A stretch of 64,000 bases of DNA. Origin: Streptomyces tirandamycinicus (lineage in GTDB: Bacteria; Actinomycetota; Actinomycetes; Streptomycetales; Streptomycetaceae). Below the pieces are notes generated by a model, which was given only the letters and a program-made list of their open reading frames with translations, searched no databases and was not told where the DNA came from. The stretch is taken from the NCBI RefSeq assembly GCF_003097515.1, contig NZ_CP029188.1, positions 6,864,531 to 6,928,530 of the forward strand, read 5' to 3'. A program made the translations under genes and the position numbers. Below are positions 46,112 to 64,000 of the stretch, in pieces. How positions within the stretch are numbered: the stretch's first letter is position 1; every line of letters starts with the position of its first letter.

Positions 46112-47830
46112 ATGGCCGACGAACTCCTGTTCAACCCCCGCACCTACGACCCGGCGCACTTCGACCCCGAGACCCGCAGGCTGCTGCGCGCCACGGTCGA
46201 CTGGTTCGAGTCCCGCGGCAAGCGCAGGCTGATCGACGACTACCGCTCCCGCGTCTGGCTGGAGGACTTCCTCGCGTTCTCCGCCAAGGAGGGCCTGTTC
46301 GCCACCTTCCTGACCCCGGCGACCGACGCCGCCCGGCCGGACCAGCGCTGGGACACCGCCCGTGTCGCCGCCCTCAACGAGATCTTCGGGTTCTACGGCC
46401 TCGACTACTGGTACGCCTGGCAGGTCACCATCCTCGGCCTCGGGCCGGTGTGGCAGAGCGGCAACGCCGCCGCCCGTGCCCGTGCGGCCGAACTCCTCTC
46501 CCGGGGCGAGGTGTTCGCCTTTGGTCTCTCCGAGAAGAGCCACGGCGCCGACATCTACTCCACCGACATGCTGCTGGAGCCCGACGGCCACGGCGGTTTC
46601 CGGGCGACCGGGTCCAAGTACTACATCGGCAACGGCAACGCCGCCGGGCTGGTCTCGGTCTTCGGCCGCCGCACCGACGTCGAGGGCCCGGACGGATACG
46701 TCTTCTTCGCCGCCGACAGCCGCCACCCCGCGTACCACCTGGTGAAGAACGTCGTCGACTCCTCCAAGTACGTCAGCGAGTTCCGGCTCGACGACTATCC
46801 GGTGGCGCCCGAGGACGTCCTGCACACCGGCCGTGCCGCCTTCGACGCCGCCCTCAACACCGTCAACGTCGGCAAGTTCAACCTCTGCACCGCCTCCGTC
46901 GGCATCTGCGAGCACGCGATGTACGAGGCCGTCACCCACGCACACAACCGCATCCTGTACGGCCGCCCCGTCACCGCGTTCCCGCATGTGCGGCGCGAAC
47001 TCACCGACGCCTACGTACGCCTCGTCGGCATGAAGCTGTTCAGCGACCGCGCCGTCGACTACTTCCGCTCCGCCGGCCCGGACGACCGCCGCTACCTGCT
47101 CTTCAACCCGATGACCAAGATGAAGGTCACCACCGAGGGCGAGAAGGTCATCGACCTGATGTGGGACGTCATCGCCGCCAAGGGCTTCGAGAAGGACAAC
47201 TACTTCGCCCAGGCCGCGGTCGAGATCCGGGGCCTGCCGAAGCTCGAGGGCACGGTGCACGTCAACCTCGCACTGATCCTGAAGTTCATGCGCAACCACC
47301 TGCTGGAACCGGTGGACTACCCCGAGGTTCCCACCCGGCTCGACGCCGCCGACGACGCGTTCCTCTTCCGGCAGGGGCCGGCCCGGGGACTCGGCTCCAT
47401 CCGCTTCCACGACTGGCGCGCCGCCTTCGACGCCTACGCCGCGGTACCCAACGTCGCCCGCCTCCGCGAGCAGGCCGACGCCCTGTGCACGTTCGTCGGC
47501 ACGGCCGCCCCCGACGAGGAGCAGAGTCGCGACCTGGACCTGCTGCTCGCCGTCGGGCAGCTGTTCGCCCTGGTGGTGCACGGCCAGCTGATCCTTGAGC
47601 AGGCCCGGCTCACCGGCCTGGACCAGGACGTGCTGGACGAGCTCTTCGCCGTCCTGGTCCGCGACTTCTCCGGCTACGCCGTCGAACTGCACGGCAAGGA
47701 CTCCGCCACCGAGCAGCAGCAGGCCTGGGCTCTGGGCGCCGTCCGCCGGCCCGTCGTCGACGAGGCCCGCTCGGCACGCGTCTGGGAGCGGGTCGAGGCG
47801 CTGTCCGGGGCGTACGAGATGGCACCGTAG
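46112..47830 (+). CDS. large acyl-CoA dehydrogenase
   Basis: A 572-residue FAD-dependent acyl-CoA dehydrogenase, longer than the usual 380-400 residues. The FAD-binding and substrate regions include EVFAFGLSEKSHGADIYSTD and FRATGSKYYIGNGNAAG. The C-terminal half has HNRILYGRPVTAFPHVRRELT, KGFEKDNYFAQAAVEIRGLP and KLEGTVHVNLALILKFM. Extra C-terminal helices (about 430-572) resemble those of very-long-chain or oxygenase-like members. ATG 46112 has GGAAGG upstream. It is expected to pass electrons to EtfBA, encoded about 11 kb away. The natural acyl substrate is unknown. Confidence 0.88.
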   Translation: MADELLFNPRTYDPAHFDPETRRLLRATVDWFESRGKRRLIDDYRSRVWLEDFLAFSAKEGLFATFLTPATDAARPDQRWDTARVAALNEIFGFYGLDYWYAWQVTILGLGPVWQSGNAAARARAAELLSRGEVFAFGLSEKSHGADIYSTDMLLEPDGHGGFRATGSKYYIGNGNAAGLVSVFGRRTDVEGPDGYVFFAADSRHPAYHLVKNVVDSSKYVSEFRLDDYPVAPEDVLHTGRAAFDAALNTVNVGKFNLCTASVGICEHAMYEAVTHAHNRILYGRPVTAFPHVRRELTDAYVRLVGMKLFSDRAVDYFRSAGPDDRRYLLFNPMTKMKVTTEGEKVIDLMWDVIAAKGFEKDNYFAQAAVEIRGLPKLEGTVHVNLALILKFMRNHLLEPVDYPEVPTRLDAADDAFLFRQGPARGLGSIRFHDWRAAFDAYAAVPNVARLREQADALCTFVGTAAPDEEQSRDLDLLLAVGQLFALVVHGQLILEQARLTGLDQDVLDELFAVLVRDFSGYAVELHGKDSATEQQQAWALGAVRRPVVDEARSARVWERVEALSGAYEMAP

Positions 47831-47996: not shown

Positions 47997-48035
47997 CCCC
48001 TCACCCGCGGCGGGTGTCACGCCGCGGGTGAGGGG
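47997..48035. terminator. shared hairpin with a stop codon in the loop
   Basis: A 16-bp perfect stem (CCCCTCACCCGCGGCG, 47997-48012, with 48020-48035) around the loop GGTGTCA. The loop contains the stop codon (48017-48019) of the leftward SbnA-like gene, and the right stem is its last codons. It also lies 166 bases past the rightward acyl-CoA dehydrogenase stop, so it can serve both genes. Confidence 0.8.
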
Positions 48036-49000
48036 GCCGCGGCGGTCCGCTGGGCGAGTACGTGCTCGCCGTAGAGGTCGTGGACCCAGTTGCTCTGGTA
48101 GATCGTCTCCAGGTACCGCTCGCCCAGGTCCGGCGCGATGGCCACCGCGGTCAGGTCGCGGTCCCCGTGTGCGGCGAGCCAGTCCGTCGCACCGCTGACG
48201 ACGGTGCCGGTGGAGCCGCCGAAGAGGAATCCGCGCCGGGCCAGCCGATGGCACACCCGGATGGTGTCGGCCTCGGGTACGTGGACCACCTCGTCCACGT
48301 ACGAGGTGTCCAGCAGCGGCGGCCGGACGCTGGTGCCCAGACCAGGGATCATCCGCCGGCCCGGGGTGTCGCCGAAGGTGACCGAGCCGACGCTGTCCAC
48401 GGCCACGATGCGCACGGGGCGGTGCCACTCGCGGAAGTAGCGCGCGCACCCCATCAGCGTTCCGGTGGTGCCGGCGCCGACGAACAGCACGTCCAGGTCG
48501 GGGAACTGCCGGGCGATCGCCGGTGCCGTTCTGCGGTAGTGGGCCATGCCGTTGTGCGGGTTCATGTACTGGTTGAGCCAAACGTAGCGGCCGTCCGAGG
48601 CGCACAGCTCCCGCACATGGTCGATACGTGCCCCGAGGAAGCCGCCGTCGCCCGCCTCGGTGACCACGTGGACCTCGGCACCCAGGGCCTCCATCAGCAG
48701 CCGGGTGGACAGATTGCAGCGTGAGTCCGTTACGCACAGGAACCGGTAGCCCCTGCTGGCGGCGATCATGCTGAGCGCCACGCCCAGGTTCCCGGACGAC
48801 GACTCGATCAGGATCGAGTCCGGCCGCAGCAGACCGTCGCGCTCGGCGGCCTCGACCATCTCCGAGGCGGCCTTGAGCTTGATCGAGCCTGCGAAGTTGA
48901 AGCCCTCGCATTTCAGGAACAGCGGGTGCCCGGCAAACGACTCCAGGTCGACATAGAGATCGTCTTCGTTGAAGTCCTGGGGAGCGGATATGACCGGCAC
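48017..49000 (-). CDS. SbnA-like PLP synthase (2,3-diaminopropionate-type / cysteine-synthase family)
   Basis: A 327-residue fold-type-II PLP enzyme. The Schiff-base lysine lies in NFAGSIKLKAASEM near residue 40. The phosphate-binding motif is ESSSGNLGVALSMIA (about 67-81). Middle segments VFVGAGTTGTLMG-like text and DSVGSVTFGDTPGRRMIPGLG, and the C-terminal FGGSTGTVVSGA, match SbnA (N-(2-amino-2-carboxyethyl)-glutamate synthase) better than CysK. GTG 49000 is chosen because AGGAGG lies 7 bases upstream. SbnB, its usual partner, is absent. A broken NRPS gene lies divergently nearby. Confidence 0.85.
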   Translation of the reverse strand: MPVISAPQDFNEDDLYVDLESFAGHPLFLKCEGFNFAGSIKLKAASEMVEAAERDGLLRPDSILIESSSGNLGVALSMIAASRGYRFLCVTDSRCNLSTRLLMEALGAEVHVVTEAGDGGFLGARIDHVRELCASDGRYVWLNQYMNPHNGMAHYRRTAPAIARQFPDLDVLFVGAGTTGTLMGCARYFREWHRPVRIVAVDSVGSVTFGDTPGRRMIPGLGTSVRPPLLDTSYVDEVVHVPEADTIRVCHRLARRGFLFGGSTGTVVSGATDWLAAHGDRDLTAVAIAPDLGERYLETIYQSNWVHDLYGEHVLAQRTAAAPSPAA

Positions 49001-49142
49001 GGCGGCCTCCTGTCGGACAGGGGGTGAGGGGACCAAGTCCGTCCGGGTGTTTCCCGAACGCTCCTCCAGTACGCCCGCCGGGAAGGCCGTCCGTCATGCC
49101 ACCGGAATTCGGGGCTTGACATCGGCCAAAAGTGTGCACTCC

Positions 49143-49171
49143 AGTATCATCCCCATGTCTGCGCAGGTCAG
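49143..49171 (-). promoter_or_regulatory. candidate promoter of the SbnA-like gene
   Basis: On the minus strand CTGACC (49166-49171) and GATACT (49143-49148) are separated by 17 bases, a reasonable -35/-10 pair. Transcription would begin near 49136 and give a leader of about 135 bases. A 13-bp palindrome AGCGTC-G-GACGCT (49195-49207) lies just upstream. Confidence 0.45.
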
Positions 49172-49194
49172 AGGCATGATCTCTCGATAGTGGG

Positions 49195-49207
49195 AGCGTC
49201 GGACGCT
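49195..49207. promoter_or_regulatory. perfect palindrome upstream of SbnA-like promoter
   Basis: AGCGTC-G-GACGCT has perfect 6-bp arms and a one-base centre. It lies 24 bases upstream of the proposed -35, a plausible activator or repressor site. Confidence 0.4.
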
Positions 49208-49775
49208 TTCCGACTGGCTGCTTATCCGGAATAGGTGACCGAGTCAAGTACCGAATCCCAGTGGCAGGACACAGCCGGTCCGATCTGGCCTACTGGAGAT
49301 TGTTCGGCATCGACGGAGAGCACGTAGCTGATCCGCGGCCGCGATCGTCCGGAAAGGGCGATCCGGGAATTGTCGATTCAAAGGGAGAACGGCGGTACGA
49401 CCGCCCAGATTGCAGGTGTGCGACTCATGTGTCCATGGTTCCGCGACCGGGGCGCGGGAACGGCTTCGGCCTACCCGGATTCCCGGGACGGGCGCCGATC
49501 CGGCCTCCGGTCCGGCCTCCGGCCCGAGCGGCTCGGCGGAGACCCGATCGGCGTGACACAACGTGACCCTCTGCCGCTCGCCGCCGAAGTTCCCCCTAAC
49601 GCACGGTGGCGCGGCGGCGCGGTCAGGGAAGCGGTCAGGGGAGGGGACCACGGAGTTCCCCTCGCAGGGCCGCACAGGACGCCGCTACCACACCGTGGCG
49701 CCGGGCACGCCCGCTGACGGCCGACCGGCGCTGCGACGCCACCCCATACGACCGGAACAACCGAGGAAAGACACG
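49208..49775. other. spacer between SbnA-like gene and NRPS fragment
   Basis: 568 bases. A 12-bp tandem TCCGGCCTCCGG pair lies near 49496-49520 and the ribosome site of the NRPS fragment (GAGGAAAG, 49763-49770) ends the region. No gene is recognised. An upstream in-frame extension (to 49563) shows no coding character. Confidence 0.5.
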
Positions 49776-50291
49776 ATGGACATGCATGCGGACAAGGGCC
49801 GGGAGTTCTGGCGCGAGGTGCTCGGTGCCGGTGGCCCGACGGCGATCCCGAGGTGGACGGCGAAGCCGTCGCAGGGGACCGCGGTCTGTGAGACGCGGGT
49901 TCCCGATGAGTTGGTGGGTGGGTTGCGGGGGTTGGCCGGGGTGTTGGGTGTGCCGGTGTCGTCGTTGTGGTTGGCGGCTCATGCGCGGGTGCTGGCGGTG
50001 TTGTCGGGTGAGGACGAGGTGGTGACGGGTTGGGTGCCGGTGGGGGGTGGGCGGGGGTTGCCGTGCCGGGTGGCGGCTGGTGGTGGGCGTTCCTGGCGGG
50101 AGTTGGTGGGGGATGCGGATCGGGTGGCTTCGGGGGTGGTGGGGCATCGGGAGTTCCCGGTGGAGGGGCTGGCGGAGGGCTCGCCGCGCCCTGGCCACGT
50201 CCGCCCGCCGCGCCCGCCCCCGCCACGTCCGCCCGCCCCGCAGGCCCGCTCGCCGCGCGGGCGGCCGAAGAGGTCCCCTGCCCGCCGGTGA
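49776..50291 (+). pseudogene. NRPS condensation-domain fragment, truncated
   Basis: The 171-codon frame starts at ATG 49776 with GAGGAAAG upstream. Residues 1-133 match the C-terminal lobe of a condensation domain: KGREFWREVLGAGG, VPDELVGGLRGLAGVLGVPV, SSLWLAAHARVLAVLSGEDE, SWRELVGDADRVASGVVGHREFP. The HHxxxDG motif is not present, as in some NRPS starter proteins that begin at this point. After GLAEGS the frame becomes Arg/Pro low-complexity (HVRPPRPPPPRPPAPQ) and stops. No adenylation or carrier domain follows. It reads as the stump of a much larger gene. Confidence 0.7.
50195..50238. repeat. direct repeat at the NRPS break point
   Basis: CCACGTCCGCCCGCC occurs at about 50195 and again 28 bases later at about 50223, exactly where homology to the condensation domain stops. 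Confidence 0.6.
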
Positions 50292-50355
50292 AACCCCCCG
50301 TATGCCTCCTTCATGTAGCCGCGTGGGGGTTTGCGCATGGCGTGATGATGGCTGC

Positions 50356-50835
50356 ATGGACGTCAACGAGGTGCTGCTGCCCGGGGTGGGGATGCGCTAC
50401 GAGTTCGCCAACCGCGAGGGGGACCGGATGTGCGTCGTCGCCCGCCGGACGGGCGACTTCGAACTGATGGTCTACGAGGGTGCGGATCCGGACGAGGCGC
50501 GGGTCGTGTTCCGGCTCACCGGCGAGGAGGCCGACACCCTCGCCGAGATCCTGGGCGCGCCGCGCATCGCCGAGCGGTTCGCCGACCTGACGAAGGAGGT
50601 GCCCGGGCTCAGCGCCGGGCAGGTCGAGGTGCGGGCGGCCGGACCCTTCGCCGGCCGACCGCTGGGGGAGACCAGGGCCCGGACCCGGACCGGGGCGTCG
50701 ATCGTGGCGGTCGTGCGCGGCGAGGAGGTGATCCCCTCCCCGGGGCCTGCGGAGCTGCTGCAGGCCGGGGACGTGCTGGTGGTGATCGGGACCCGCGACG
50801 GGATCTCCGCGGTGGAACAGATCATCCAGGGCTGA
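50356..50835 (+). CDS. khtT: K+/H+ antiporter regulatory subunit, KhtT-like
   Basis: A 159-residue cytosolic protein with an RCK_C (TrkA-C) domain in the second half (about 78-158: GLSAGQVEVRAAGPFAGRPL, GASIVAVVRGEEVIPSPGPA, LQAGDVLVVIGTRDGI). The first half has the KhtT N-terminal fold, with YEFANREGDRMCVVARRTGD. The antiporter gene starts 3 bases after the stop, so they are one transcript and probably one complex. KhtT proteins inhibit the transporter and respond to nucleotides such as c-di-AMP in other bacteria. ATG 50356 follows the NRPS stump by 64 bases. Confidence 0.88.
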   Translation: MDVNEVLLPGVGMRYEFANREGDRMCVVARRTGDFELMVYEGADPDEARVVFRLTGEEADTLAEILGAPRIAERFADLTKEVPGLSAGQVEVRAAGPFAGRPLGETRARTRTGASIVAVVRGEEVIPSPGPAELLQAGDVLVVIGTRDGISAVEQIIQG

Positions 50836-50838
50836 ACC

Positions 50839-52035
50839 GTGAACGTCTCGGTCGCCCTGATGCTGGAGCTGGGCGCCATCCTCGCCGTGCTCAGCCTGCT
50901 CGGGGCGCTGGCCCGGCGCTTCGCGCTCTCGCCGATCCCGCTCTATCTCCTGGCGGGACTGGCGCTGGGCGAAGGGGGCATCGCCCCGGTTCCCGCCGCC
51001 GGCCCGTTCGTGGAGACCGGTGCGGGCATCGGAGTGGTCCTGCTGCTGCTGGTGCTCGGTCTCGAGTTCACCGTGCCGGAGTTCGCCGTCAGCCTGCGCC
51101 GCCATCTGCCCAGCGCGGTGGTGGACCTGGTGCTGAACGCGACCCCCGGGGCCGTGGCGGGCTGGCTGCTGGGGCTCGATGCCAGCGGGATCCTGGCCCT
51201 CGCGGGCGTGACGTACATCTCCTCCTCGGGCATCATCGCCCGGCTACTGGGCGACCTGCGGCGGCTGGGCAACCGGGAGACCCCGGCCGTGCTGTCGGTA
51301 CTGGTGCTGGAGGACTTCGCCATGGCGGGGTTCCTGCCGCTGCTCTCCGTCGTCGCCGCCGGCGGCACCTGGCGGCAGGCCCTGCTGGGGGTGCTGCTGG
51401 CCCTCGGCGCGGTGCTGGCCGCGTTCAGCGTGTCGTACTGGTGGGGACACCGGCTGGGACGTGCGCTGCTGCATCTGCGTCCGGACCCCGAGCAGCTGCT
51501 GCTGCGGGTCCTCGGGGTGACGCTGGTCGTCGCGGCTCTCGCCGAGGCCGTCCACGTCTCCGCCGCGGTCGGCGCCTTCCTCGTCGGACTGTCGCTCACC
51601 GGTGAGGCGGCCGACCGGGCGCGCCAGGTGCTGAGCCCGCTGCGGGACCTGTTCGCCGCCGTCTTCTTCCTCGCCATCGGCCTGGCCATCAGTCCCCGGG
51701 CCCTGCTGCCGGTGCTGCCCGCCGCCCTGCTGCTGGCCGTGGTCACGGCGCTGACCAAGGTGGTGACAGGCTGGTACGCGGCGAGGCGCGAGGGCGCGGG
51801 GCCCCGGGGCCGGCTGCGGGCCGGCACCGCGCTGATCGCCCGCGGCGAGTTCTCCATCGTCATGATCGGACTGGTGGGTGTGCGCCAGGACCGGCTCGGC
51901 GCCCTGGTGGCCGCCTACGTCCTGCTGCTCGCCGTAGCCGGACCCGTGATCACCCGCTTCGCCGGTGCCCGCCCGGTCCCCCGGGCAGCGGCGGGGCACC
52001 AGGGAGGCACCCCCGCCGCGGCCGGGCCCGGGTGA
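50839..52035 (+). CDS. khtU: cation:proton antiporter (CPA2, KhtU-like)
   Basis: A 398-residue inner-membrane antiporter with about 12 hydrophobic segments. Family marks include LSPIPLYLLAGLALGEGGI, GVVLLLLVLGLEFTVPEF, GVTYISSSGIIARLLGDL, VLSVLVLEDFAMAGFLPLL (with the transport carboxylate) and GTALIARGEFSIVMIGL. GTG 50839 starts 3 bases after khtT. The C-terminus after residue 380 is short and lacks an RCK domain, which khtT supplies in trans. It would export K+ (or NH4+) in exchange for H+. The gene converges on the P-type ATPase gene with 61 bases between stops. Confidence 0.92.
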   Translation: MNVSVALMLELGAILAVLSLLGALARRFALSPIPLYLLAGLALGEGGIAPVPAAGPFVETGAGIGVVLLLLVLGLEFTVPEFAVSLRRHLPSAVVDLVLNATPGAVAGWLLGLDASGILALAGVTYISSSGIIARLLGDLRRLGNRETPAVLSVLVLEDFAMAGFLPLLSVVAAGGTWRQALLGVLLALGAVLAAFSVSYWWGHRLGRALLHLRPDPEQLLLRVLGVTLVVAALAEAVHVSAAVGAFLVGLSLTGEAADRARQVLSPLRDLFAAVFFLAIGLAISPRALLPVLPAALLLAVVTALTKVVTGWYAARREGAGPRGRLRAGTALIARGEFSIVMIGLVGVRQDRLGALVAAYVLLLAVAGPVITRFAGARPVPRAAAGHQGGTPAAAGPG

Positions 52036-52096
52036 GGCGGAACGCCGGGCGCACGGCCGTGGAGGAAGCGTTCAGGGCACTGCACGTGCGGGCAGG

Positions 52097-54841
<2,745 letters not shown>

Positions 54842-55251
54842 CCGAGCCTCCCGCGACGGCGACGGGCCTGCTCACATCAAGCCTCCAGCTCGGGCCGCGT
54901 CACGCCGGGCGGGAGGCGGCACCGCTGCCGGCCCGCCTGGCACGCCATGCCACGGCGTTCCGCGGGATGACCGGCTGCCTCGCGCAACCGGTGACCCTTC
55001 AGTTCATACCTCTCTGGTCATACCCCTCTGGTCTCAGCATGTGCCCATGCCGTGCCACCCTGCCCATGCGGGGGCCTCGACGGTGGTCCCCGCGGGCCTC
55101 TGGGGCCGGCGTCGGCGGCATCCCGTCCCGGTCCGGCCCGAAGTGCAGTGAACTGGACCGCCCGGTCCTGTAGGATGCATCACACTCCGTGGCCCGGAGG
55201 ACCCTTCCCGGACCCGGAGCACCGTCGCAGCACTTCCAGGCAAGGACGCAG
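54842..55251. other. divergent spacer
   Basis: 410 bases. TCATACCTCTCTGG and TCATACCCCTCTGG are in tandem at 55004-55031, and TAGGAT at 55171-55176 could be the -10 for the B3/4 gene. No gene is called. Confidence 0.5.
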
Positions 55252-55944
55252 ATGCCTCTCACGCTCACCGTCTCCGACGAGGTCCACGCTCTCGTCCCCG
55301 GCTTCACCCCGCTCGTCGTCGAGGCCCGCGGCCTGGTCAACGGGCCCAGCAACGAGGCGAGTTCGGCGCTCCTCGACGAGGCCGCCCGCCGGGTGGCGGA
55401 ACGGCTCGGCGGCCGGGCCCCGCACGAGGACCCGCACATGGCGGCCTGGCGCGCCGCCTACACCGCCTTCGGGGCCAAGCCGTCCCGTACCCGCAACTCC
55501 GCCGAGGCGCTCGCCCGGCGAGCGCTGACCGGCGCCGGGCTGCCGCGGATCAATCTGCTCGTCGACGCGTACAACGCACTCAGTGTGGCCCGCCTGATCC
55601 CGGTCGGCGGCGAGGACCTCGACCGCGTCCGGGGTGGAATGCGCCTGGTGCGCGCCACCGGCCGGGAGCCGTTCGTCACCGTCGCGGGTGGCGAGGAGAC
55701 GGTGGAGTGCCCCGACCCGGGCGAGATCGTCTGGTGCGACGAGGAAGGCGTCACCTGCCGCCGCTGGAACTGGCGCCAGGGCCCCCGCACCCGGCTCACC
55801 GAGGAATCCGTCAACGGACTCTTCCTGCTGGAGTCCCTGGCCCCGATGGACCCGGCGGAACTGGAGGCGGCGGGCGCGGAGCTCGCGGAGTCCCTGGAGA
55901 AGCTCAGCCCCGGAGCCCGGATCACCCTCCGTGACGCGGACTGA
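55252..55944 (+). CDS. B3/4-domain protein (PheRS beta B3/B4-like)
   Basis: A 230-residue stand-alone version of the B3/B4 domain of phenylalanyl-tRNA synthetase beta. Typical segments are WRAAYTAFGAKPSRTRNSAEAL (about 63-84), LPRINLLVDAYNALSVARLIPVGGEDLDRV, PGEIVWCDEEGVTCRRWNWRQ and LFLLESLAPMD. Proteins of this family are thought to edit or bind aminoacyl-tRNA or amino acids; activity is not established. ATG 55252 has AAGGA upstream. It is convergent with the acyltransferase gene and separated from it by GC-rich hairpins. Confidence 0.9.
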   Translation: MPLTLTVSDEVHALVPGFTPLVVEARGLVNGPSNEASSALLDEAARRVAERLGGRAPHEDPHMAAWRAAYTAFGAKPSRTRNSAEALARRALTGAGLPRINLLVDAYNALSVARLIPVGGEDLDRVRGGMRLVRATGREPFVTVAGGEETVECPDPGEIVWCDEEGVTCRRWNWRQGPRTRLTEESVNGLFLLESLAPMDPAELEAAGAELAESLEKLSPGARITLRDAD

Positions 55945-56031
55945 CGGAGGTGGTGGGGGAGTCGCCGCGACCCCCTCGGACCGGAGCCGGTTCCGCCCGC
56001 CCGGCTGGCCGCCCGCCCGGCCGGGCGGCGT

Positions 56032-56057
56032 CCCCGCGCGGCGGGAACGCCGCGGGG
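56032..56057. terminator. hairpin between convergent genes
   Basis: CCCC-(GC bulge)-GCGGCG pairs with CGCCGC-GGGG around a GGAA tetraloop (56032-56057). A second palindrome CCGCCCGG-CCGGGCGG lies just upstream at about 56012-56028. It would stop transcripts from the B3/4 gene, and the stop of the leftward acyltransferase is adjacent. Confidence 0.5.
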
Positions 56058-56063
56058 ATTCGC

Positions 56064-56786
56064 TCAGCGGGCCTCGCGGACCTCGGCGGGAGTCGGTGCC
56101 GTGCCCCCGAGGTGAGCGGGTACCCACCAGGTGTCGGAGGCGTCCCTGGGGCGCACCGGATAGGCGCGCTGCGCCGACTCCAGCAGCTCCTGGACACGCT
56201 CCCGCAGCCGGCGCGTGAGAGCCCCGGCGTACTGGTCGGTCGGCGCCTCCATGGCCTCGCCGACGCGGATCGTCACCGGGATGTGGCTGCGCCGGAGGTT
56301 CCTCGGCCGGCCCTTGGTCCACAGCCGCTGCGTGCCCCACAGGGCCATCGGGACGAGCGGCACGCCGGCCTCCTGCGCGAGCCGGGCCGCGCCGGACTTG
56401 AAGCCCTTCAGCGTGAACGACTGGGAGATGGTGGCCTCCGGGAAGACGCCGATCACCTCGCCCGCGCGCAGCGAGTCCAGCGCGTGGGCGTACGCGTCCT
56501 CGCCCTGGCGCCGGTCCACCGGGATGTGCTTCATGCCCCTCATCAGCGGGCCCGAGACGCGGTGCCGGAAGACCGACTCCTTCGCCATGAAGCGCACCAG
56601 TCGCTTCTGCGGCAGCGCGGCCAGGCCGGAGAAGATGAAGTCCAGGTAGCCGATGTGATTGCTCACCAGCACCGCGCCGCCGGACCGGGGGATGTTCTCC
56701 GAACCCTGGCAGTCGATCTTCAGGTCGAGCGCCTTGAACATCGCGAGTGCGGCGCCGATGACCGGCCGGTAGACGAGCTCTGCCAT
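56064..56786 (-). CDS. lysophospholipid acyltransferase (PlsC-like)
   Basis: A 240-residue 1-acylglycerol-phosphate acyltransferase family protein. The catalytic NHxxxxD motif is VSNHIGYLDFIFSG (about 41-54). The glycerol-phosphate binding FPEATIS is near 115, and LVPMALWGTQRLW is motif IV-like. A hydrophobic N-terminal segment (5-20) likely anchors it to the membrane. ATG 56786 is chosen; AAGGG lies somewhat distant. It makes phosphatidic acid or a related acylated lipid. It is divergent from the thioredoxin-like gene. Confidence 0.9.
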   Translation of the reverse strand: MAELVYRPVIGAALAMFKALDLKIDCQGSENIPRSGGAVLVSNHIGYLDFIFSGLAALPQKRLVRFMAKESVFRHRVSGPLMRGMKHIPVDRRQGEDAYAHALDSLRAGEVIGVFPEATISQSFTLKGFKSGAARLAQEAGVPLVPMALWGTQRLWTKGRPRNLRRSHIPVTIRVGEAMEAPTDQYAGALTRRLRERVQELLESAQRAYPVRPRDASDTWWVPAHLGGTAPTPAEVREAR

Positions 56787-57088
56787 GTCGGGAGAGGCCC
56801 TTCCTTCTGTTTCCCGGGGAGGGTTCTCCCAGCGGAGGTTACGCAGCCGTAGGTATTCGGCATTGGGCAGATGGTGCCCCATGTACGGCGCGACGGCCAG
56901 TCCTCGGCGCGTCGTGCGGCGAGATTCTCGTCACGTCGTGTCACCTGCCACACCGCCACGGTGTTCACCGCCCGGTTACCTCCGTGCCTCCCGTCCCTCC
57001 CGCTCGCCCGCGGGCCGGGGCGGCGGGCGCTTCCGGCGGCTCGGACGGTCGGGAATCATCCCGGCCCCGGGAACGCTGGAGGGAGTCG
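56787..57088. other. divergent spacer
   Basis: 302 bases between acyltransferase and thioredoxin-like genes. I see no gene and no strong hexamers or inverted repeats. Confidence 0.5.
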
Positions 57089-57538
57089 ATGACGGGACTC
57101 GCGGGTGCGCGCGTGACGGTCCCCGCGGTGGCGGGGCGGTCGGTGCGCCGCACCGCGCACGGGCGGACGGGCGGGAGACCGATGGTGAGCGGACCGGGCG
57201 AGGAGCACGGGGAGCGGCGGCTCGGCGCTGCCGAGCTGGGCGCCGAACTGGGGGAGAGGGCGACGCTCGTACAGTTCTCCAGCGCCTTCTGCCAGCCGTG
57301 CCGGGCGACGCGCCGCACGCTCGCGGAAGTCGCGGGAATGGTGGACGGCGTCGCCCATGTCGAGATCGACGCCGAGGACCGGCTCGCGCTCGTGCGCGAA
57401 CTGGACGTCCTTCGCACCCCGACCGTGCTGGTGCTCGACGCCCGGGGCCGGATCGTACGGAGGGCCGCCGGGCAGCCCCGCAAGGCGGACGTGATCGCGG
57501 CCCTCGGCGAGGCCGTGCGGTGGCCGGCGCGCGGGTGA
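57089..57538 (+). CDS. thioredoxin-like protein
   Basis: A 149-residue protein with a thioredoxin fold in residues 45-149. The redox motif is FSSAFCQPCRATRR (CxxC), followed by AHVEIDAEDRLALVREL and the cis-Pro segment VLRTPTVLVLDARGRIV. Close relatives I recall usually begin with a transmembrane segment; here residues 1-40 are Arg/Gly-rich and not convincingly hydrophobic. An internal start at M32 is possible. ATG 57089 has GGAGGGA upstream. It is followed 216 bases later by the flavin reductase gene. Confidence 0.85.
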   Translation: MTGLAGARVTVPAVAGRSVRRTAHGRTGGRPMVSGPGEEHGERRLGAAELGAELGERATLVQFSSAFCQPCRATRRTLAEVAGMVDGVAHVEIDAEDRLALVRELDVLRTPTVLVLDARGRIVRRAAGQPRKADVIAALGEAVRWPARG

Positions 57539-57754
57539 CGGCTGCCGGACGGGCGCCCGTGACGCAGCTCCCATCCGTCCGTGCCCACTTGACTGCGTCC
57601 GCCCGCAATCGTCAGTCTGACGATGTGCCGACAGAACTCCTTCCCGTCGGGCGGGCGCCGCACCGAGCAGCCTCGGCCCGAGCCGCGAGCCCGCTCCGCC
57701 CGGGTGTCTGAGCCGCGACGAACCCGACCGACCCCCTCGCGGAAGGAACCCTCC

Positions 57755-58261
57755 ATGGCGGCCAGGCCCGGCCTCGGCACCCCTCGACTCGCCTCCCCCG
57801 ATCTGCTGCGCTCCGTGTTCCGGCGGCACGCCGCCGGAGTGGCGGTGATCACCGCCCGGGGCGACCGCCCGGTGGGCTTCACCGCCACCTCGCTCAGCTC
57901 CGTCGCCGCCGAGCCGCCGCTGCTGTCGTTCGGCATCGGCACCGCCTCCTCCAGCTGGCGGGTCATCGCCGACGCGGACCATGTCGGGGTGCACATACTC
58001 GCCGAGGACCAGCGCGATCTGGCCGCCACGTTCGCCCGCAGGGGCGCCGACCGGTTCGCCCCGCCGACCCGGTGGCGCATCGGGCCCGAGGGGGTTCCGC
58101 TCCTGGACGGCGTGCCGGCGTGGCTGGTCTGCCGGGTGGTGGCCCGGGTGCCGGCGGGGGACCACCGCGTGGTGATCGCCGAGGCGGTCGCCGGTGACCC
58201 GGAGGGACCCGGTCGCCCTCTGCTGTACCACCAGGGGCGCTTCAACGCGTTGAGGGACTGA
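57755..58261 (+). CDS. flavin reductase family protein
   Basis: A 168-residue split-barrel flavin-binding protein. The N-terminal RSVFRRHAAGVAVITARGDRP and GFTATSLSSVAAEPPLLSFGI are diagnostic, and the C-terminal LLYHQGRFNAL is the closing motif. ATG 57755 has GGAAGGA upstream. Such reductases supply reduced flavin to two-component monooxygenases, or act as NAD(P)H:FMN oxidoreductases. No monooxygenase gene is nearby. The etf operon starts 190 bases downstream with its own promoter. Confidence 0.9.
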   Translation: MAARPGLGTPRLASPDLLRSVFRRHAAGVAVITARGDRPVGFTATSLSSVAAEPPLLSFGIGTASSSWRVIADADHVGVHILAEDQRDLAATFARRGADRFAPPTRWRIGPEGVPLLDGVPAWLVCRVVARVPAGDHRVVIAEAVAGDPEGPGRPLLYHQGRFNALRD

Positions 58262-58341
58262 GGAAATCCGGTTACACAGCGTTGGCAAGGTCACAGTTCC
58301 AAGCGCTTGCTCACCGGGTACGTAGTGGGTGTACTGGCGAG

Positions 58342-58420
58342 TAATATTTCGTTCGGAGCGCCGGTCGCCCCGACCGGAAAACCCCGCCTTCAGGCGCCTA
58401 TGCTGCCTGCACAAGGCAGC
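58342..58420 (+). promoter_or_regulatory. promoter/leader region of etfBA
   Basis: Two -10-like hexamers, TAATAT (58342-58347) and TATGCT (58399-58404), precede the gene. The second overlaps a perfect 7-bp hairpin GCTGCCT-GCACA-AGGCAGC (58402-58420). The start GTG 58452 follows AGGAGAG. The hairpin may be an operator or mRNA element. Confidence 0.45.
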
Positions 58421-58451
58421 TCGGAAATGACGATGCAGTAGGAGAGCCGGC

Positions 58452-59237
58452 GTGAGCTTGAGGATCGTTGTCTGTGTGAAGTACGTGCCCGACGCCACCG
58501 GCGACCGGCACTTCGCCGATGACCTGACGGTCGACCGCGACGATGTCGACGGCCTGCTGTCGGAGCTCGACGAGTACGCGGTCGAGCAGGCGCTGCAGAT
58601 CGCCGAGGAGGCGGACGACGCCGAGATCACCGTGCTGACCGTCGGTCCCGAGGACGCCAAGGACGCGCTGCGCAAGGCGCTGTCCATGGGTGCGGACAAG
58701 GCCGTCCACGTCGAGGACGACGATCTCCACGGCACCGACGTGATGGGTACGTCGCTGGTCCTGGCCAAGGCGATCGAGAAGACCGGCTACGACCTGGTCC
58801 TGTGCGGCATGGCCTCGACCGACGGCGTCATGGGCGTCCTTCCGGCGATCCTCGCCGAGCGGCTCGGCGTTCCGCAGGTGACCCTGCTGTCCGAGGTGTC
58901 CGTCGAGGACGGCACCGTCAAGGGCCGCCGTGACGGCGACACCGCGTCGGAGCAGCTGGAGGCGTCCCTGCCGGCGGTCGTGTCCGTGACGGACCAGTCG
59001 GGCGAGGCGCGCTACCCGTCCTTCAAGGGCATCATGGCCGCGAAGAAGAAGCCGGTGGAGTCGCTGGACCTGTCCGACCTCGACATCGAGGCGGAGGAGG
59101 TCGGCCTGGAGGGTTCCTGGACCGCGGTCGACTCCGCGGCCGAGCGCCCGGCCCGCACCGCGGGCACGATCGTCAAGGACGAGGGCGAGGGCGGCAAGCA
59201 GCTCGCGGAGTACCTCGCGAGCCAGAAGTTCATCTGA
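58452..59237 (+). CDS. etfB: electron transfer flavoprotein beta subunit
   Basis: A 261-residue EtfB. It starts LRIVVCVKYVPDATGDRHFA. The AMP-binding and structural region includes EITVLTVGPEDAKDALRKAL and VLAKAIEKTGYDLVLCGMAS. The recognition-loop region is VSVTDQSGEARYPSFKGIMAAKKK. GTG 58452 has AGGAGAG upstream. etfA follows after 58 bases. The EtfBA heterodimer collects electrons from acyl-CoA and other dehydrogenases and hands them to the quinone pool; acyl-CoA dehydrogenase and related genes are present elsewhere in the window. Confidence 0.96.
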   Translation: MSLRIVVCVKYVPDATGDRHFADDLTVDRDDVDGLLSELDEYAVEQALQIAEEADDAEITVLTVGPEDAKDALRKALSMGADKAVHVEDDDLHGTDVMGTSLVLAKAIEKTGYDLVLCGMASTDGVMGVLPAILAERLGVPQVTLLSEVSVEDGTVKGRRDGDTASEQLEASLPAVVSVTDQSGEARYPSFKGIMAAKKKPVESLDLSDLDIEAEEVGLEGSWTAVDSAAERPARTAGTIVKDEGEGGKQLAEYLASQKFI

Positions 59238-59295
59238 GCTTCGGTCATCAACCCAACCGCCCCGCACACTTCGCAAGCAGGAGAGAAGAAGTCCC

Positions 59296-60270
59296 ATGGC
59301 TGAAGTTCTCGTCTACGTCGACCACGTGGACGGCGCCGTCCGCAAGCCCACCCTGGAGCTGCTGACGCTGGCCCGCCGCATCGGCGAGCCGATCGCCGTC
59401 GCGCTCGGTTCCGGCGCCGAGGCCACCGCCGCCACCCTCGCCGAGCACGGCGCGGTCAAGGTCCTCACCGCCGACGCGCCCGAGTTCGCCGACTACCTGG
59501 TCGTACCGAAGGTGGACGCGCTGCAGGCCGCGTACGAGGCGGCGTCGGCCGGCGGCTCCCTGGCCGCGGTGCTGGTGCCGTCCTCCGCCGAGGGCAAGGA
59601 GATCGCGGCCCGTCTCGCGGTCCGCATCGGCTCCGGAATCATCACCGACGCGGTCGACCTGGAGGCCGGCGACGGGGGTCCGGTGGCCACGCAGTCCGCG
59701 TTCGCCGCCGCCTTCACCACCAAGTCCCGCGTGTCCAAGGGCATCCCGGTCATCACGGTGAAGCCGAACTCGGCCCCCGTGGAGGCCGCCCCGGCCGCCG
59801 GCGCCGTCGAGGCGCTCACCGTCGCCTTCGGTGACAAGGCGACCGGCACCAAGGTCGTCTCCCGCACCCCGCGCGAGTCGACCGGCCGCCCCGAGCTGAC
59901 CGAGGCCGCGATCGTGGTCTCCGGCGGCCGCGGTGTCAACGGCGCCGAGAACTTCTCGGTGATCGAGGCGCTCGCCGACTCGCTCGGCGCCGCCGTCGGC
60001 GCCTCCCGCGCCGCCGTGGACGCCGGCTGGTACCCGCACTCCAACCAGGTCGGCCAGACCGGCAAGAGCGTCTCGCCGCAGCTGTACATCGCCTCCGGCA
60101 TCTCGGGCGCGATCCAGCACCGGGCCGGTATGCAGACCTCCAAGACCATCGTGGCGGTCAACAAGGACCCCGAGGCCCCGATCTTCGACCTGGTCGACTA
60201 CGGCGTGGTCGGTGACCTGTTCGAGGTCGTCCCCCAGCTGACCGACGAGATCAAGGCCCGCAAGGGCTGA
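59296..60270 (+). CDS. etfA: electron transfer flavoprotein alpha subunit
   Basis: A 324-residue EtfA. The N-terminal domain is AEVLVYVDHVDGAVRKPTLE. The FAD-binding C-terminal domain has AIVVSGGRGVNGAENFSVIE, GASRAAVDAGWYPHSNQVGQTGKSV-type text and QLYIASGISGAIQHRAGMQ, VAVNKDPEAPIFDLVDYGVVGDLFEVVP. It is complete and of normal length. CAGGAGAG precedes ATG 59296. It is co-transcribed with etfB and followed by a strong terminator at 60291-60322. Confidence 0.97.
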   Translation: MAEVLVYVDHVDGAVRKPTLELLTLARRIGEPIAVALGSGAEATAATLAEHGAVKVLTADAPEFADYLVVPKVDALQAAYEAASAGGSLAAVLVPSSAEGKEIAARLAVRIGSGIITDAVDLEAGDGGPVATQSAFAAAFTTKSRVSKGIPVITVKPNSAPVEAAPAAGAVEALTVAFGDKATGTKVVSRTPRESTGRPELTEAAIVVSGGRGVNGAENFSVIEALADSLGAAVGASRAAVDAGWYPHSNQVGQTGKSVSPQLYIASGISGAIQHRAGMQTSKTIVAVNKDPEAPIFDLVDYGVVGDLFEVVPQLTDEIKARKG

Positions 60271-60290
60271 GTCCGGCAGGACGCCCGTCC

Positions 60291-60322
60291 GGGGCCGCGC
60301 GGTGACGCCACCGCGCGGCCCC
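60291..60322 (+). terminator. strong hairpin after etfA
   Basis: GGGGCCGCGCGGTG (60291-60304) pairs over 14 bp with CACCGCGCGGCCCC (60309-60322) around an ACGC loop. It lies 21 bases past the etfA stop. Confidence 0.85.
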
Positions 60323-60384
60323 GCCGCGTTCCGGGAGACCATTGACGCAGATCAGTCACCCCGATAGCTTCACCATGCGGATTG

Positions 60385-60407
60385 TTGATTCCGTCAGGTG
60401 GAATCAA
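60385..60407. promoter_or_regulatory. perfect inverted repeat before DUF6986 gene
   Basis: TTGATTCC-GTCAGGT-GGAATCAA has perfect 8-bp arms and a 7-base centre. It ends 22 bases before ATG 60429, directly in front of the ribosome site GGAGG (60415-60419). An IclR- or similar-type operator is possible. Confidence 0.6.
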
Positions 60408-60428
60408 GCGAGTGTGGAGGGTGCCAGG

Positions 60429-61718
60429 ATGGGTCAGCAGGAGAAGGTGTCGACGAGCCTCGCCGGCGCGGTCGGCGAGGGCATCAGCGCCTCCCTCGCA
60501 CCGGTGGACGCCGAGCTCGCCCGCCGGTACCCGGGAGACCCCGGCACCCGCCAGCCCGTCCACACCGTCTATGTGCCCGGCGACGCCTTCGGCGCCGGAA
60601 CGATCCGCTCCTGGGGCGACCAGGCGCTCGCCTCGCTGGACGAGCACGCCCCGGACGCAGCGGCCCTCGCCCGGGTGCTCGGACTCCCCGGCGACCTCGC
60701 GGAGGCCGTCTACACCCGGGTACGGGCCAAGCTGGAACGCGAGCCCGTGGAGGACCTCCGCGTCGACTTCGAGGACGGGTACCACGGCCGCGACGAGGAC
60801 GCCGACGCCGCCCGTGCCGCCCGCCTGCTCTCCGAGGCGCACGCCCGGGGCACGGCGGCGCCGTACACGGGCATCCGCATGAAGTGCATGGAGGCCGCCG
60901 TACGCGACCGCGGCATCCGCACCACCGACGTCTTCCTGACCGGCCTGATGGAGCACGGCGGACTGCCCGGCGGCCTCGTCCTCACCCTCCCGAAGGTCAC
61001 CTACCCGGAGCAGGTCACGGCCTTCGTCCGGCTCCTCGAGGCCTTCGAGAAGACCCACGGACTCGACACGGGACGGATCGGGTTCGAGATCCAGATCGAG
61101 ACCAGCCAGGCCATCCTCGCCGCCGACGGCACCGCGACCGTCGCCCGCATGATCGACGCCGCCGAGGGCCGCGCCACCGGGCTGCACTACGGCACCTTCG
61201 ACTACAGCGCCTGCCTCGGCGTCAGCGCCGCCCACCAGGCGAGCGACCACCCCGCCGCCGACCACGCCAAGGCCGTCATGCAGGTCGCCGCCGCCGGCAC
61301 CGGCGTACGGGTCTCGGACGGCTCCACCAATGTGCTGCCGGTGGGCGGCACCGAGCAGGTGCACCAGGCCTGGCGGCTCCACTACGGCCTGACCCGCCGC
61401 GCCCTGGCCCGTGCCTACTACCAGGGCTGGGACATGCACCCCGGCCACCTCCCGACCCGCTATGCCGCCGTGTTCGCGTTCTACCGCGAGGGCCTTCAGG
61501 CCGCTGCCGCGCGCCTCGCCGCCTACGTGGCCCGCACCGAGGGCGACATCATGGACGAGCCCGCCACGGCGAAGGCGCTCAGCGGCTACCTGCTGCGCGG
61601 ACTGGACTGCGGCGCGCTCGACGACGACGAGGTCACCCGCCTCACCGGCCTCACCCGGGCCGAGCTCGACGGCTTCGCCCGGCCGCGCCGCGGCGATCTG
61701 ACGGCCACCGCCCGGTAG
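60429..61718 (+). CDS. DUF6986 family protein (HpcH/HpaI aldolase-like)
   Basis: A 429-residue TIM-barrel protein related to HpcH/HpaI aldolases and citrate lyase/malate-synthase-type folds. Conserved acid/metal segments include VDFEDGYHGRDEDADAARAA (about 115), IGFEIQIETSQAILAADG, LHYGTFDYSACLGV, and C-terminal YQGWDMHPGHLPTRYAAVFAF. ATG 60429 follows GGAGG by 9 bases; the longer frame from 60342 would span the inverted repeat and is rejected. The chemistry is likely C-C cleavage or condensation of a small acyl or keto acid, but the substrate is not known. Confidence 0.85.
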   Translation: MGQQEKVSTSLAGAVGEGISASLAPVDAELARRYPGDPGTRQPVHTVYVPGDAFGAGTIRSWGDQALASLDEHAPDAAALARVLGLPGDLAEAVYTRVRAKLEREPVEDLRVDFEDGYHGRDEDADAARAARLLSEAHARGTAAPYTGIRMKCMEAAVRDRGIRTTDVFLTGLMEHGGLPGGLVLTLPKVTYPEQVTAFVRLLEAFEKTHGLDTGRIGFEIQIETSQAILAADGTATVARMIDAAEGRATGLHYGTFDYSACLGVSAAHQASDHPAADHAKAVMQVAAAGTGVRVSDGSTNVLPVGGTEQVHQAWRLHYGLTRRALARAYYQGWDMHPGHLPTRYAAVFAFYREGLQAAAARLAAYVARTEGDIMDEPATAKALSGYLLRGLDCGALDDDEVTRLTGLTRAELDGFARPRRGDLTATAR

Positions 61719-61833
61719 CCGCCGCACGGCCGTCGGCCACCGCCGCGCATGCCGCTCGCCGGCGCGGGGCCGACCGCCCGGCGGCGGAACACGACGTGCG
61801 ACGACGGCCGGCCGCGCCGCGCTGCCCGCCCCT

Positions 61834-61856
61834 CGCCCCCCGGGGCCCCGGGGCCC
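61834..61856. terminator. GC-rich palindrome between convergent genes
   Basis: CCCCGGGGCCCCGGGG-type self-complementary sequence in the 154-base gap between the DUF6986 gene and the leftward response-regulator gene, about 20 bases beyond the latter's stop. Confidence 0.4.
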
Positions 61857-61872
61857 GGCGGCGCCCCGAGCC

Positions 61873-62655
61873 TCAGTCGAGAAGGCCGGCGTGGTGGGCG
61901 AGGAGGGCGGCCTGGACCCGGTTGGCCGCGCGGACCTTGGTGAGGATCCGGCTGATGTGGGTCTTCGCGGTGGCCTCGCTGATGCGCAGCGCTGCGGCGA
62001 TGTCCGCGTTGGACAGGCCCCGGCCCAGCGCGACGAGCACGTCGCGTTCCTTCGCGGTGAGCGCCCGGAGGCGTTCCCTGGCTTGGCCGGCCCGCTGCTG
62101 CCGGGCGCGGGCTCCGCGTTCTTCGCCGTCCTCGGCGAAGTGGCGGAGCAGCCGTCGGGTCACCTTGGGGGAGAGCATCGCGTCGCCGCGCGCGGCGCTG
62201 CGCACAGCGTTGATCATGTCGTCCGCGGTGGCGTCCTTCAGCAGGAAGCCGACGGCACCGTGGCGCAGCGCGGTGCGCACGTACTCGTCCAGGTCGAAGG
62301 TGGTGAGGACGACGACGTGGGGTGGGTGCTCCGAGCGGGCGAGCCGTTCGGTGGCCGTCAGCCCGTCGGAGCGGGGCATGCGGATGTCCATCAGGACCAC
62401 GTCCGGCCGGAGGACGCCGGCCATGGTCACCGCGGTGCTGCCGTCGGATGCCTCGCCGGCCACGGTGATGTCCGGAGCGGACTCCATGATGGTGCGCAGC
62501 ATGGAGCGCACCATCCATTCGTCGTCCACGATCAGGACGCTGACGGTCCCGCCCGTCCCGCCCGCCGGAGTCGTCCCGCCCACCGGAGTCGTGCCGCCGG
62601 CTGGAGTCGTGCCGGTCGTGCCGGTCGGGTCGTTCGTGCTGTTCGTGTCGGTCAT
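61873..62655 (-). CDS. NarL/LuxR-family response regulator
   Basis: A 260-residue two-component response regulator. Residues 1-37 are a low-complexity Thr/Gly/Pro head with a TTPAGG-like hexapeptide repeat. The receiver (38-160) has VSVLIVDDEWMVRSMLR and the phospho-acceptor Asp90 in VVLMDIRMPRSDGLTATERL, with the Lys in FLLKDA. The C-terminal LuxR HTH (about 195-255) is LTAKERDVLVALGRGLSNAD, SEATAKTHISRILTKV. ATG 62655 overlaps the histidine kinase stop by 4 bases, so the pair is co-translated. Confidence 0.94.
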   Translation of the reverse strand: MTDTNSTNDPTGTTGTTPAGGTTPVGGTTPAGGTGGTVSVLIVDDEWMVRSMLRTIMESAPDITVAGEASDGSTAVTMAGVLRPDVVLMDIRMPRSDGLTATERLARSEHPPHVVVLTTFDLDEYVRTALRHGAVGFLLKDATADDMINAVRSAARGDAMLSPKVTRRLLRHFAEDGEERGARARQQRAGQARERLRALTAKERDVLVALGRGLSNADIAAALRISEATAKTHISRILTKVRAANRVQAALLAHHAGLLD

Positions 62656-63878
62656 CGGGCACTCTCCGTGGCCGGGGGTCCCTCGGCGGTGTGGGCCGTG
62701 GGCGGGGTTCCGTCGAGGGGGATCTCCGCGAGGATCCCGAAGCCGCCGCCCGGCATGGGCTGAGCGGTGAGCCGGCCGCCGAGGAGGCGGATGCGTTCGG
62801 CGATGCCGAGCAGACCGTGTCCCCCGCCGGGCAGGTCGGTGGTGCCTTCGGCGGTGCCGCGCCGGTTGGTGACCGTCAGCCGCAGCAGCCCCGGGGTGTG
62901 CCGGACCTCGACACGGGTCTCGGCGTCACCGGCGTGCTTGTGCACATTGGTGAGGGCTTCCTGGACGACGCGGTAGACGGCGTGCTCGACCAGTGCGGGC
63001 AGTACCGGCATTGCGGGCGACCCGGATTCGGTGGTGGCCCCGGTGCCGTCGGTCATGGTCAGGGTGACGGGGATGCCGGTACGCCGGGATTCCCCGACCA
63101 GGTCGTCGAGTTCGGCCAGGCCGGGCTGGGGAGCCAGCGGCACCTCGGTGTCGGAGCGCAGCACCTCCACCAGCGAGCGGAGTTCGGTCAGGGCCTCACG
63201 TCCGATGGTGCCGATCTGGCGGCCGAGCGTGAGGGCGGTCTCCCCGCGGGCGGCCTCGAGGGCGGTGGCGTGCAGGACGATGAGCGACACCCGGTGGGTG
63301 ACCACGTCGTGCATGTCCCTGGCGATCCGGGTGCGTTCGTCGCTGCGGGCCTGCAGCACCCGCTGGTGCTGCTCGCGTTCGGCGCGTTCGGCGCGCTCCC
63401 GCAGCTCGGCCAGCAACGCGCGGTGGGCACCGACGTACAGCCCGAGGAGCGTGGGCAGCAGGCAGATCCCCAGACTGATGGGCACCGCGGCGTCGGCACC
63501 GCCCATGTCCCACACCGGTACGGCGACGATCACGAGTGCGGCCACTGTGGCCGGTGCGGCCTTCCGCCAGGAGGCGCTGCGCTCCGCGACCGTGTACTGC
63601 GCGACCATGACGGCCACCCAGGACGACAACGCCACATAGGAGCCCAGGGCGCACAGCAGGAACAGCTTCGGGTGGCGGCGCCGCCGCCAGGCAGCCGCGC
63701 CGGTCAGCAGCCCCAGCGGGACGGCCAGCCAGAGCGGCGGAATCCAGTCGGCGTAGGCGAAGTTGGCGGACCGGCCGTCCTGCACGGCCGTGGTCAGCGC
63801 GAGGGCGACCGCCACGGCGACGTCGGCGGCGGGACGGGCCCGCTTCCGTACGGCGGCGCAACGCAGGGGCCATCTCAT
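62652..63878 (-). CDS. NarL-type sensor histidine kinase
   Basis: A 408-residue membrane histidine kinase with about five hydrophobic segments in residues 15-150 and no obvious extracellular sensor domain. The HisKA_3 phospho-acceptor is His190 in ERTRIARDMHDVVTHRVSLIVLHA-type text. The ATP-binding domain has VVQEALTNVHKHAGDAETRV and a glycine loop GGGHGLLGIAERIRLLGGRL. It partners the response regulator by 4-base overlap. Ligand and target genes are unknown. ATG 63878 is used; no strong ribosome site is seen, so a nearby start is possible. The last 122 bases of the window hold nothing recognisable. Confidence 0.9.
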   Translation of the reverse strand: MRWPLRCAAVRKRARPAADVAVAVALALTTAVQDGRSANFAYADWIPPLWLAVPLGLLTGAAAWRRRRHPKLFLLCALGSYVALSSWVAVMVAQYTVAERSASWRKAAPATVAALVIVAVPVWDMGGADAAVPISLGICLLPTLLGLYVGAHRALLAELRERAERAEREQHQRVLQARSDERTRIARDMHDVVTHRVSLIVLHATALEAARGETALTLGRQIGTIGREALTELRSLVEVLRSDTEVPLAPQPGLAELDDLVGESRRTGIPVTLTMTDGTGATTESGSPAMPVLPALVEHAVYRVVQEALTNVHKHAGDAETRVEVRHTPGLLRLTVTNRRGTAEGTTDLPGGGHGLLGIAERIRLLGGRLTAQPMPGGGFGILAEIPLDGTPPTAHTAEGPPATESAR

Positions 63879-64000
63879 GGGATGAGGCTAGCGGCGCCGC
63901 CGCGAGGCGGCGTCAATCGATAGTCGTACGGCGCCGCCGCGGAGCTGCACCTTTCCGCCGACACCGGGCGCGCGGATCGGCGGACGCCCGCACCCGCGGC

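Follow-up and report, generated by a model that had tools for sequence, protein, structure and literature searches.

L-2,3-diaminopropionate is formed by the SbnA/SbnB pathway in staphyloferrin B synthesis, and also for the poly-Dap of S. albulus PD-1, the synthetase of which is one A-PCP-membrane protein (PMC4668381). The elements denominated GRINS are characterized, in two papers describing them, by GC and TA skews with absolute values above 0.15 (PMC9899208) or 0.25 (PMC10394414), near-identity (>80-90%) to a homologous region and a minimum length of 500 bp to about 1 kb, and are credited there with the promotion of gene conversion in Streptomyces assembly lines (PMC9899208, PMC10394414). 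Intragenomic recombination of A-domain regions between loci, with a noted nucleotide skew, has been described for the wol/dsa NRPS clusters (PMC9205934). Rearrangement of Streptomyces chromosome arms and illegitimate joining are in turn well documented (PMC8627663, PMC5124664).

The locus and its features

The stretch of DNA analysed, hereafter the window, is 64,000 nt long (G000:C1:6864531-6928530, NZ_CP029188.1) and is located near the right end of the 7.29-Mb chromosome of Streptomyces tirandamycinicus (genome G000). Coordinates refer to the window unless marked C1. The Streptomyces relatives used for comparison are G230, one of the two closest genomes among those compared, the sister species G034, G274, G286 and Streptomyces sp. 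I6. Type I denotes an intact cluster found elsewhere in G000, type II the window locus, in which SbnA is divergent from the NRPS gene. The locus is very probably (about 0.9) the remnant of a second diaminopropionate-NRPS cluster, cut by an arm rearrangement, the NRPS gene of which was homogenised with its paralog by gene conversion. Its features are:

46112-47830, plus strand: acyl-CoA dehydrogenase family gene, conserved left neighbour and synteny anchor (96.5% amino acid identity in I6, directly beside SbnA).
48017-49000, minus strand: SbnA-family gene, intact, type II copy, 327 aa, GTG start, within ORF 48017-49036.
49776-50178, plus strand: 5' remnant of the divergent NRPS gene, which has lost its A and T domains and corresponds to a condensation-domain C-lobe (alignment with the full-length NRPSs of G230, I6 and the own type I cluster; profile search).
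49776-49901, plus strand: portion of the remnant that has kept its type II ancestry (identity 0.87/0.86 to the type II genes of G230/G034 versus 0.72 to type I).
49902-50178, plus strand: 277-bp gene-conversion tract, GRINS-like, 277/277 identical to the own type I NRPS gene (C1:4705423-4705699, minus strand).
50179-50291, plus strand: C-terminal tail of the 171-aa ORF, out of family and devoid of similarity to any NRPS, a read-through of junction sequence.
50179-50245, no strand: junction filler, 67 bp, which aligns convincingly with neither flank in relatives and holds most of a tandem repeat.
50246-52035, plus strand: TrkA_C/CPA2 antiporter gene pair and its upstream region, first genes of a relocated block (alignment to I6 from 471345 downwards; Pfam).

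Intact clusters in the same genome and in relatives

The type I cluster of G000 (L131, C1:4694825-4708444), unnoticed in the sequence-only reading, lies 2.2 Mb from the window locus and encodes a carrier protein, an NRPS, a TauD-family oxygenase, SbnB (TIGR03944, 393 bits) and SbnA. The NRPS is 1213 aa long, and is made of half-C, A, T and TE domains. The carrier protein is encoded by a separate gene and has a Pls/PosA-type terminal domain (TIGR02353), unlike the published poly-Dap synthetase, which is a single protein. SbnB had been reported as absent; this holds for the window locus, not for the genome, which has this other SbnB in its type I cluster.

An intact type II cluster, organized as SbnA divergent from NRPS-TauD-SbnB and with an open NRPS frame, is found in G230 (G230:C1:7236142-7241800), to the side of the same acyl-CoA dehydrogenase gene on which SbnA lies in the window. 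A whole type II cluster is also found in I6 (L134), where SbnA directly adjoins the dehydrogenase gene, as in the window. The locus had been taken for the scar of a lost cluster, and the retention of SbnA-NRPS-TauD-SbnB in both syntenic relatives bears this out. The alignment with close relatives that had been proposed as a check revealed an intact cluster beside SbnA, but the khtTU region, expected at the other end, is 338 kb away in I6. Like the SbnA/SbnB pathway, the intact clusters combine an SbnA-family enzyme (TIGR03945) with SbnB (TIGR03944); they differ from it in the addition of a TauD oxygenase and a half-C/A/T(/TE) NRPS, and the window locus in the loss of SbnB. The ancestral type II locus would have carried SbnA on one strand and, divergently, genes for an NRPS (half-C, A, T), a TauD oxygenase and SbnB.

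The evidence for an open NRPS frame comes from G230 and more distant relatives. In I6 the frame is broken in both NRPS copies (L134 and L135), in each inside the G-rich region; these breaks are probably sequencing indels of the I6 assembly.

A tract identical to a distant paralog

The identity of the tract to the type I NRPS gene is complete, compared with 81% between the two SbnA genes of G000, and the chance of a 277-bp identity at an 81% background is about 4e-26. Codons located upstream of 49902 are still type II-like. Judged from these sequences, the tract is to be regarded as the product of gene conversion between loci 2.2 Mb apart, and its zero divergence suggests that the conversion was recent. 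Compared with types I and II of the relatives, which are themselves homogenised or mosaic, the tract is a mosaic, and this is compatible with either direction of conversion. Such patterns warn that clusters identical over a short range may have been overwritten recently, and trees drawn from this NRPS region would mislead.

Exact stretches shared by the two NRPS copies of one genome measure 1712 bp in G230, 1052 bp in I6 and 796 bp in G274. In G034, 100 of the last 101 bp before a break of its own match the type I gene of that genome exactly. GC and TA skews are above 0.25 in the homogenised pairs of I6, G230 and G274. Seven unskewed pairs share only 26-34 bp exactly, except that of G286, which shares 204 bp and is partly homogenised; the other six are clearly not homogenised. 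The association between skew and conversion does not amount to five independent points, as all but one of the five genomes showing the skew signature are closely related. Homogenised pairs (I6, G230, G274), truncated copies (G000, G034) and unskewed pairs constitute together a natural set that allows a direct test of how strand skew, conversion across distant clusters and breakage of the chromosome are linked.

G274 has three copies. Two of them (L090 and L091) share 98.8% identity over 2.5 kb and have GC/TA skews of 0.33/0.27; the third (L092) is unskewed and about 70% identical.

The end of the tract coincides exactly with the truncation, and conversion and cut could have been one event, in which a break in the type II NRPS gene invaded the paralog, copied 277 bp and was then end-joined to unrelated arm DNA. 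The independently truncated gene of G034, similarly identical to the own type I gene right before its break, is in line with this, as are the NHEJ-like genes present in Streptomyces and the illegitimate recombination reported in the arms (PMC5124664). Long converted tracts, however, span the region in the intact relatives I6 and G230, and a cut made later would in any case have a tract at its edge. A single repair event is accordingly possible, though unlikely. Conversion first and cut later is the simplest order, as the intact relatives have long converted tracts at this place already. The A-domain side of the NRPS gene had probably been homogenised with the paralog 2.2 Mb away independently of the rearrangement or just before it, and the sequence shows that a 277-bp piece of the converted region is kept right up to the break.

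Strand skew and likeness to GRINS

The tract has a GC skew of 0.56 and a TA skew of 0.64, versus 0.45 and 0.37 for the intact paralogous gene. No other 277-bp stretch in 464 kb of the right arm is as strand-skewed, and no other 2-kb stretch in 520 kb is as skewed as the I6 copy. At third codon positions the skewed region of type I has 69% G and 15% C, compared with 40% and 53% in SbnA.

With regard to GRINS as portrayed in the papers cited above, likeness is found in the skewed coding strand, in the near-identity to a homologous region, brought about by gene conversion, and in the location in Streptomyces biosynthetic genes. The skews of the tract exceed the higher of the two published thresholds, and its identity to the own type I NRPS gene (277/277) exceeds the range quoted. 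The length falls short, being 277 bp in the truncated copy, and reaches about 2-2.8 kb in I6 and G230. The tract also differs in that it resides in a one-module NRPS instead of a PKS, and in that the two copies belong to two distant clusters, 2.2 Mb apart, rather than to the same assembly line or cluster; moreover, one copy has been cut by a rearrangement. Because of these differences from the GRINS described, the tract is called GRINS-like only. The converted region shows the signature of a recoded stretch of this sort, and would recombine with its counterpart by the mechanism put forward in those papers. Recombination within one genome between A-domain regions of separate loci, as well as the skew, recall the wol/dsa clusters (PMC9205934). 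Here two copies of the same gene family have been homogenised, and the result is preserved in a dead stub.

GRINS-like tracts might act between NRPS clusters megabases apart and be fragile sites at the same time, their asymmetry driving both concerted evolution and the arm breaks that truncate type II clusters. A coding strand rich in G and T would be open to R-loops or quadruplexes, and independent truncations occurred in two species, each apparently inside or at the edge of a converted tract. We regard this proposal as tentative and rather doubtful.

The chromosomal junction

The window is collinear with I6 up to 50174, corresponding to I6 position 133371 (133 kb), and again from 50246, corresponding to I6 position 471345 (471 kb). 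Two segments 338 kb apart in I6 are therefore joined at the break. The block, which changed to the other arm, measures 83 kb in the window genome and 62 kb in I6, and occupies at least 50246-64000 of the window. Left-arm positions 334554 and 335200 of the window genome match I6 positions 409034 and 471519; about 650 bp are found between them, and the block is missing there. In G230 the block is at the old, I6-like position, and the NRPS-TauD-SbnB continuation is kept. Given the old location of the block in both I6 and G230, the arrangement of the window is derived. The first genes of the block encode a TrkA_C protein (50356-50835) and a CPA2 antiporter (50839-52035), a pair fitting the khtTU genes that had been placed right after the stub. 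As the synteny in the two relatives shows, an arm rearrangement joined the NRPS gene to a block that starts a short way upstream of khtTU, and took out all NRPS sequence past codon 135 together with the TauD and SbnB genes.

Two other outcomes were considered. Excision with the lost genes kept elsewhere was ruled out, as the distal half of the type II cluster (TauD, SbnB and the tail of the NRPS gene) was not found elsewhere in G000. A duplication of the khtTU block was ruled out as well, the block being single-copy in G000.

The sequence-only reading had attributed the loss to a local deletion between short direct repeats, which would have taken away the rest of the cluster. The 15-bp direct repeat invoked, CCACGTCCGCCCGCC, is indeed present near the break, at 50195 and 50223. 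It extends to 16 bp at 50194/50222, is part of an imperfect 28-bp tandem spanning 50187-50242, and neither the 15-mer nor the 16-mer occurs in the intact type I paralogous cluster. Both copies are however distal to the break (50178) and lie 28 bp apart, and a deletion mediated by repeats leaves one copy only; the presence of two adjacent copies beyond the break thus shows that the repeat is not a deletion scar. Furthermore, the distal sequence maps in I6 338 kb off, on the proximal side of the locus, an order that no simple deletion can yield. The position of the repeat and the gene order in I6 and G230 led to the rejection of this deletion, which is very improbable.

The scar left by the rearrangement is of an ordinary type. 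As in the arm rearrangements already known (PMC8627663, PMC5124664), segments have been shuffled within or between arms, and genes lost at a breakpoint; the sole oddity is a breakpoint placed inside a GRINS-like tract. The tract kept at the break is instructive, the scar itself being part of the usual turnover of the arms.

The segment at the left of the break (G000:C1:6861649-6914704, I6 177-133 kb) is located in the opposite arm relative to I6, and at about 6860600 it meets sequence of the I6 right arm. Since this segment also changed arm, the arms must have been shuffled more than once.

The 171-aa ORF

The ORF 49776-50291 starts with ATG at 49776, and is homologous to NRPS N-termini through codon 135. 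The full-length Streptomyces NRPSs that it matches are about 850-1300 aa long. The 36 codons that follow, up to the stop at 50291, are Arg/Pro-rich and match nothing, in agreement with the collapse into Arg/Pro low-complexity sequence that had been pointed out. No domain was recognised in a Pfam search of the 171-aa protein alone. A profile of the intact N-termini detects condensation domains, only in their C-terminal lobe (McyA 206-453, AmbE 201-427), and 28 relatives lack the motif HHxxxD[GE] in their first 400 residues. The two-lobed domain with HHxxxDG is thus lacking in the stub as well as in the intact members, and, the C-lobe being all that these have, the half condensation domain is a trait of the family rather than damage. 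The stub stops before the A domain and has neither adenylation nor carrier domain; intact relatives feature AMP-binding and PP-binding domains. The gene had been described as retaining a good start and 133 residues of a truncated condensation domain. Truncation is confirmed, with 135 codons retained; the half domain as a sign of damage is to be discarded, as it is natural in this family.

Among the NRPS matches listed from 296 genomes of the genus, the open frame is of at least 490 aa in all, bar the window (244) and G034 (252). The G034 gene is broken later, and has an unlike tail. A short protein shared by relatives, conserved C-terminus included, had been named as the finding that would speak for a real protein; the lone other short one, that of G034, breaks elsewhere and ends in another tail. 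The 171-aa ORF is a pseudogene stub. A stand-alone role as a functional half-condensation-domain protein, for which the start codon, the upstream region, the open frame and the conserved N-terminal part could be quoted, is very improbable and was rejected for want of conserved short homologs, the same short protein being found in no relative, breakpoints and tails differing in the window and G034, and the tail being junction DNA.

The independent NRPS truncation of the sister species is located at G034:C16:15427-16182, only about 8 kb from the intact type I cluster of that genome.

The surviving SbnA gene

The gene had been described as SbnA-like. Its product scores 384.8 bits against TIGR03945 (2,3-diaminopropionate biosynthesis protein SbnA), above the curated equivalog cut-off of 349.95, which substantiates the assignment with the start moved to GTG 49000. 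This start is better than TTG 49036, is immediately preceded by AGGAGG, and is preferred because all relatives begin VPVIS..DFNEDDLY. Amino acid identity is 95% to the ortholog of Streptomyces sp. I6 and 92-93% to that of G034. dN/dS versus three relatives is 0.11-0.12, equal to the value among those relatives, a test of constraint of little power if the truncation is also recent. As had been proposed, the intact gene may live on with a solo function, but it is at least partly redundant, as G000 hosts a full second SbnA/SbnB/NRPS cluster. The intact type II SbnA might feed its product to the SbnB of the type I cluster.

Diversity and spread of the clusters

In the literature searched no product has been described for the SbnA/SbnB/NRPS cluster; there is work on staphyloferrin and poly-Dap, and a mention of an SbnA/SbnB/NRPS locus in S. 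scabies. The gap between the acyl-CoA dehydrogenase gene and SbnA varies. In G230 (C1:7216431-7233667) and G034 (C16:20096-37245) it holds about 17 kb, with a further NRPS gene and a gene for a SpoIIE-type phosphatase, which are missing from the window and I6. SbnA is located at most 8 kb from the NRPS gene at 57 of 61 loci in the commonly searched genomes, and 8 of those are divergent. Clusters joining SbnA/SbnB, a TauD oxygenase and a C-lobe-only NRPS are hosted by 82 of 296 Streptomyces genomes, as counted by the NRPS N-terminus.
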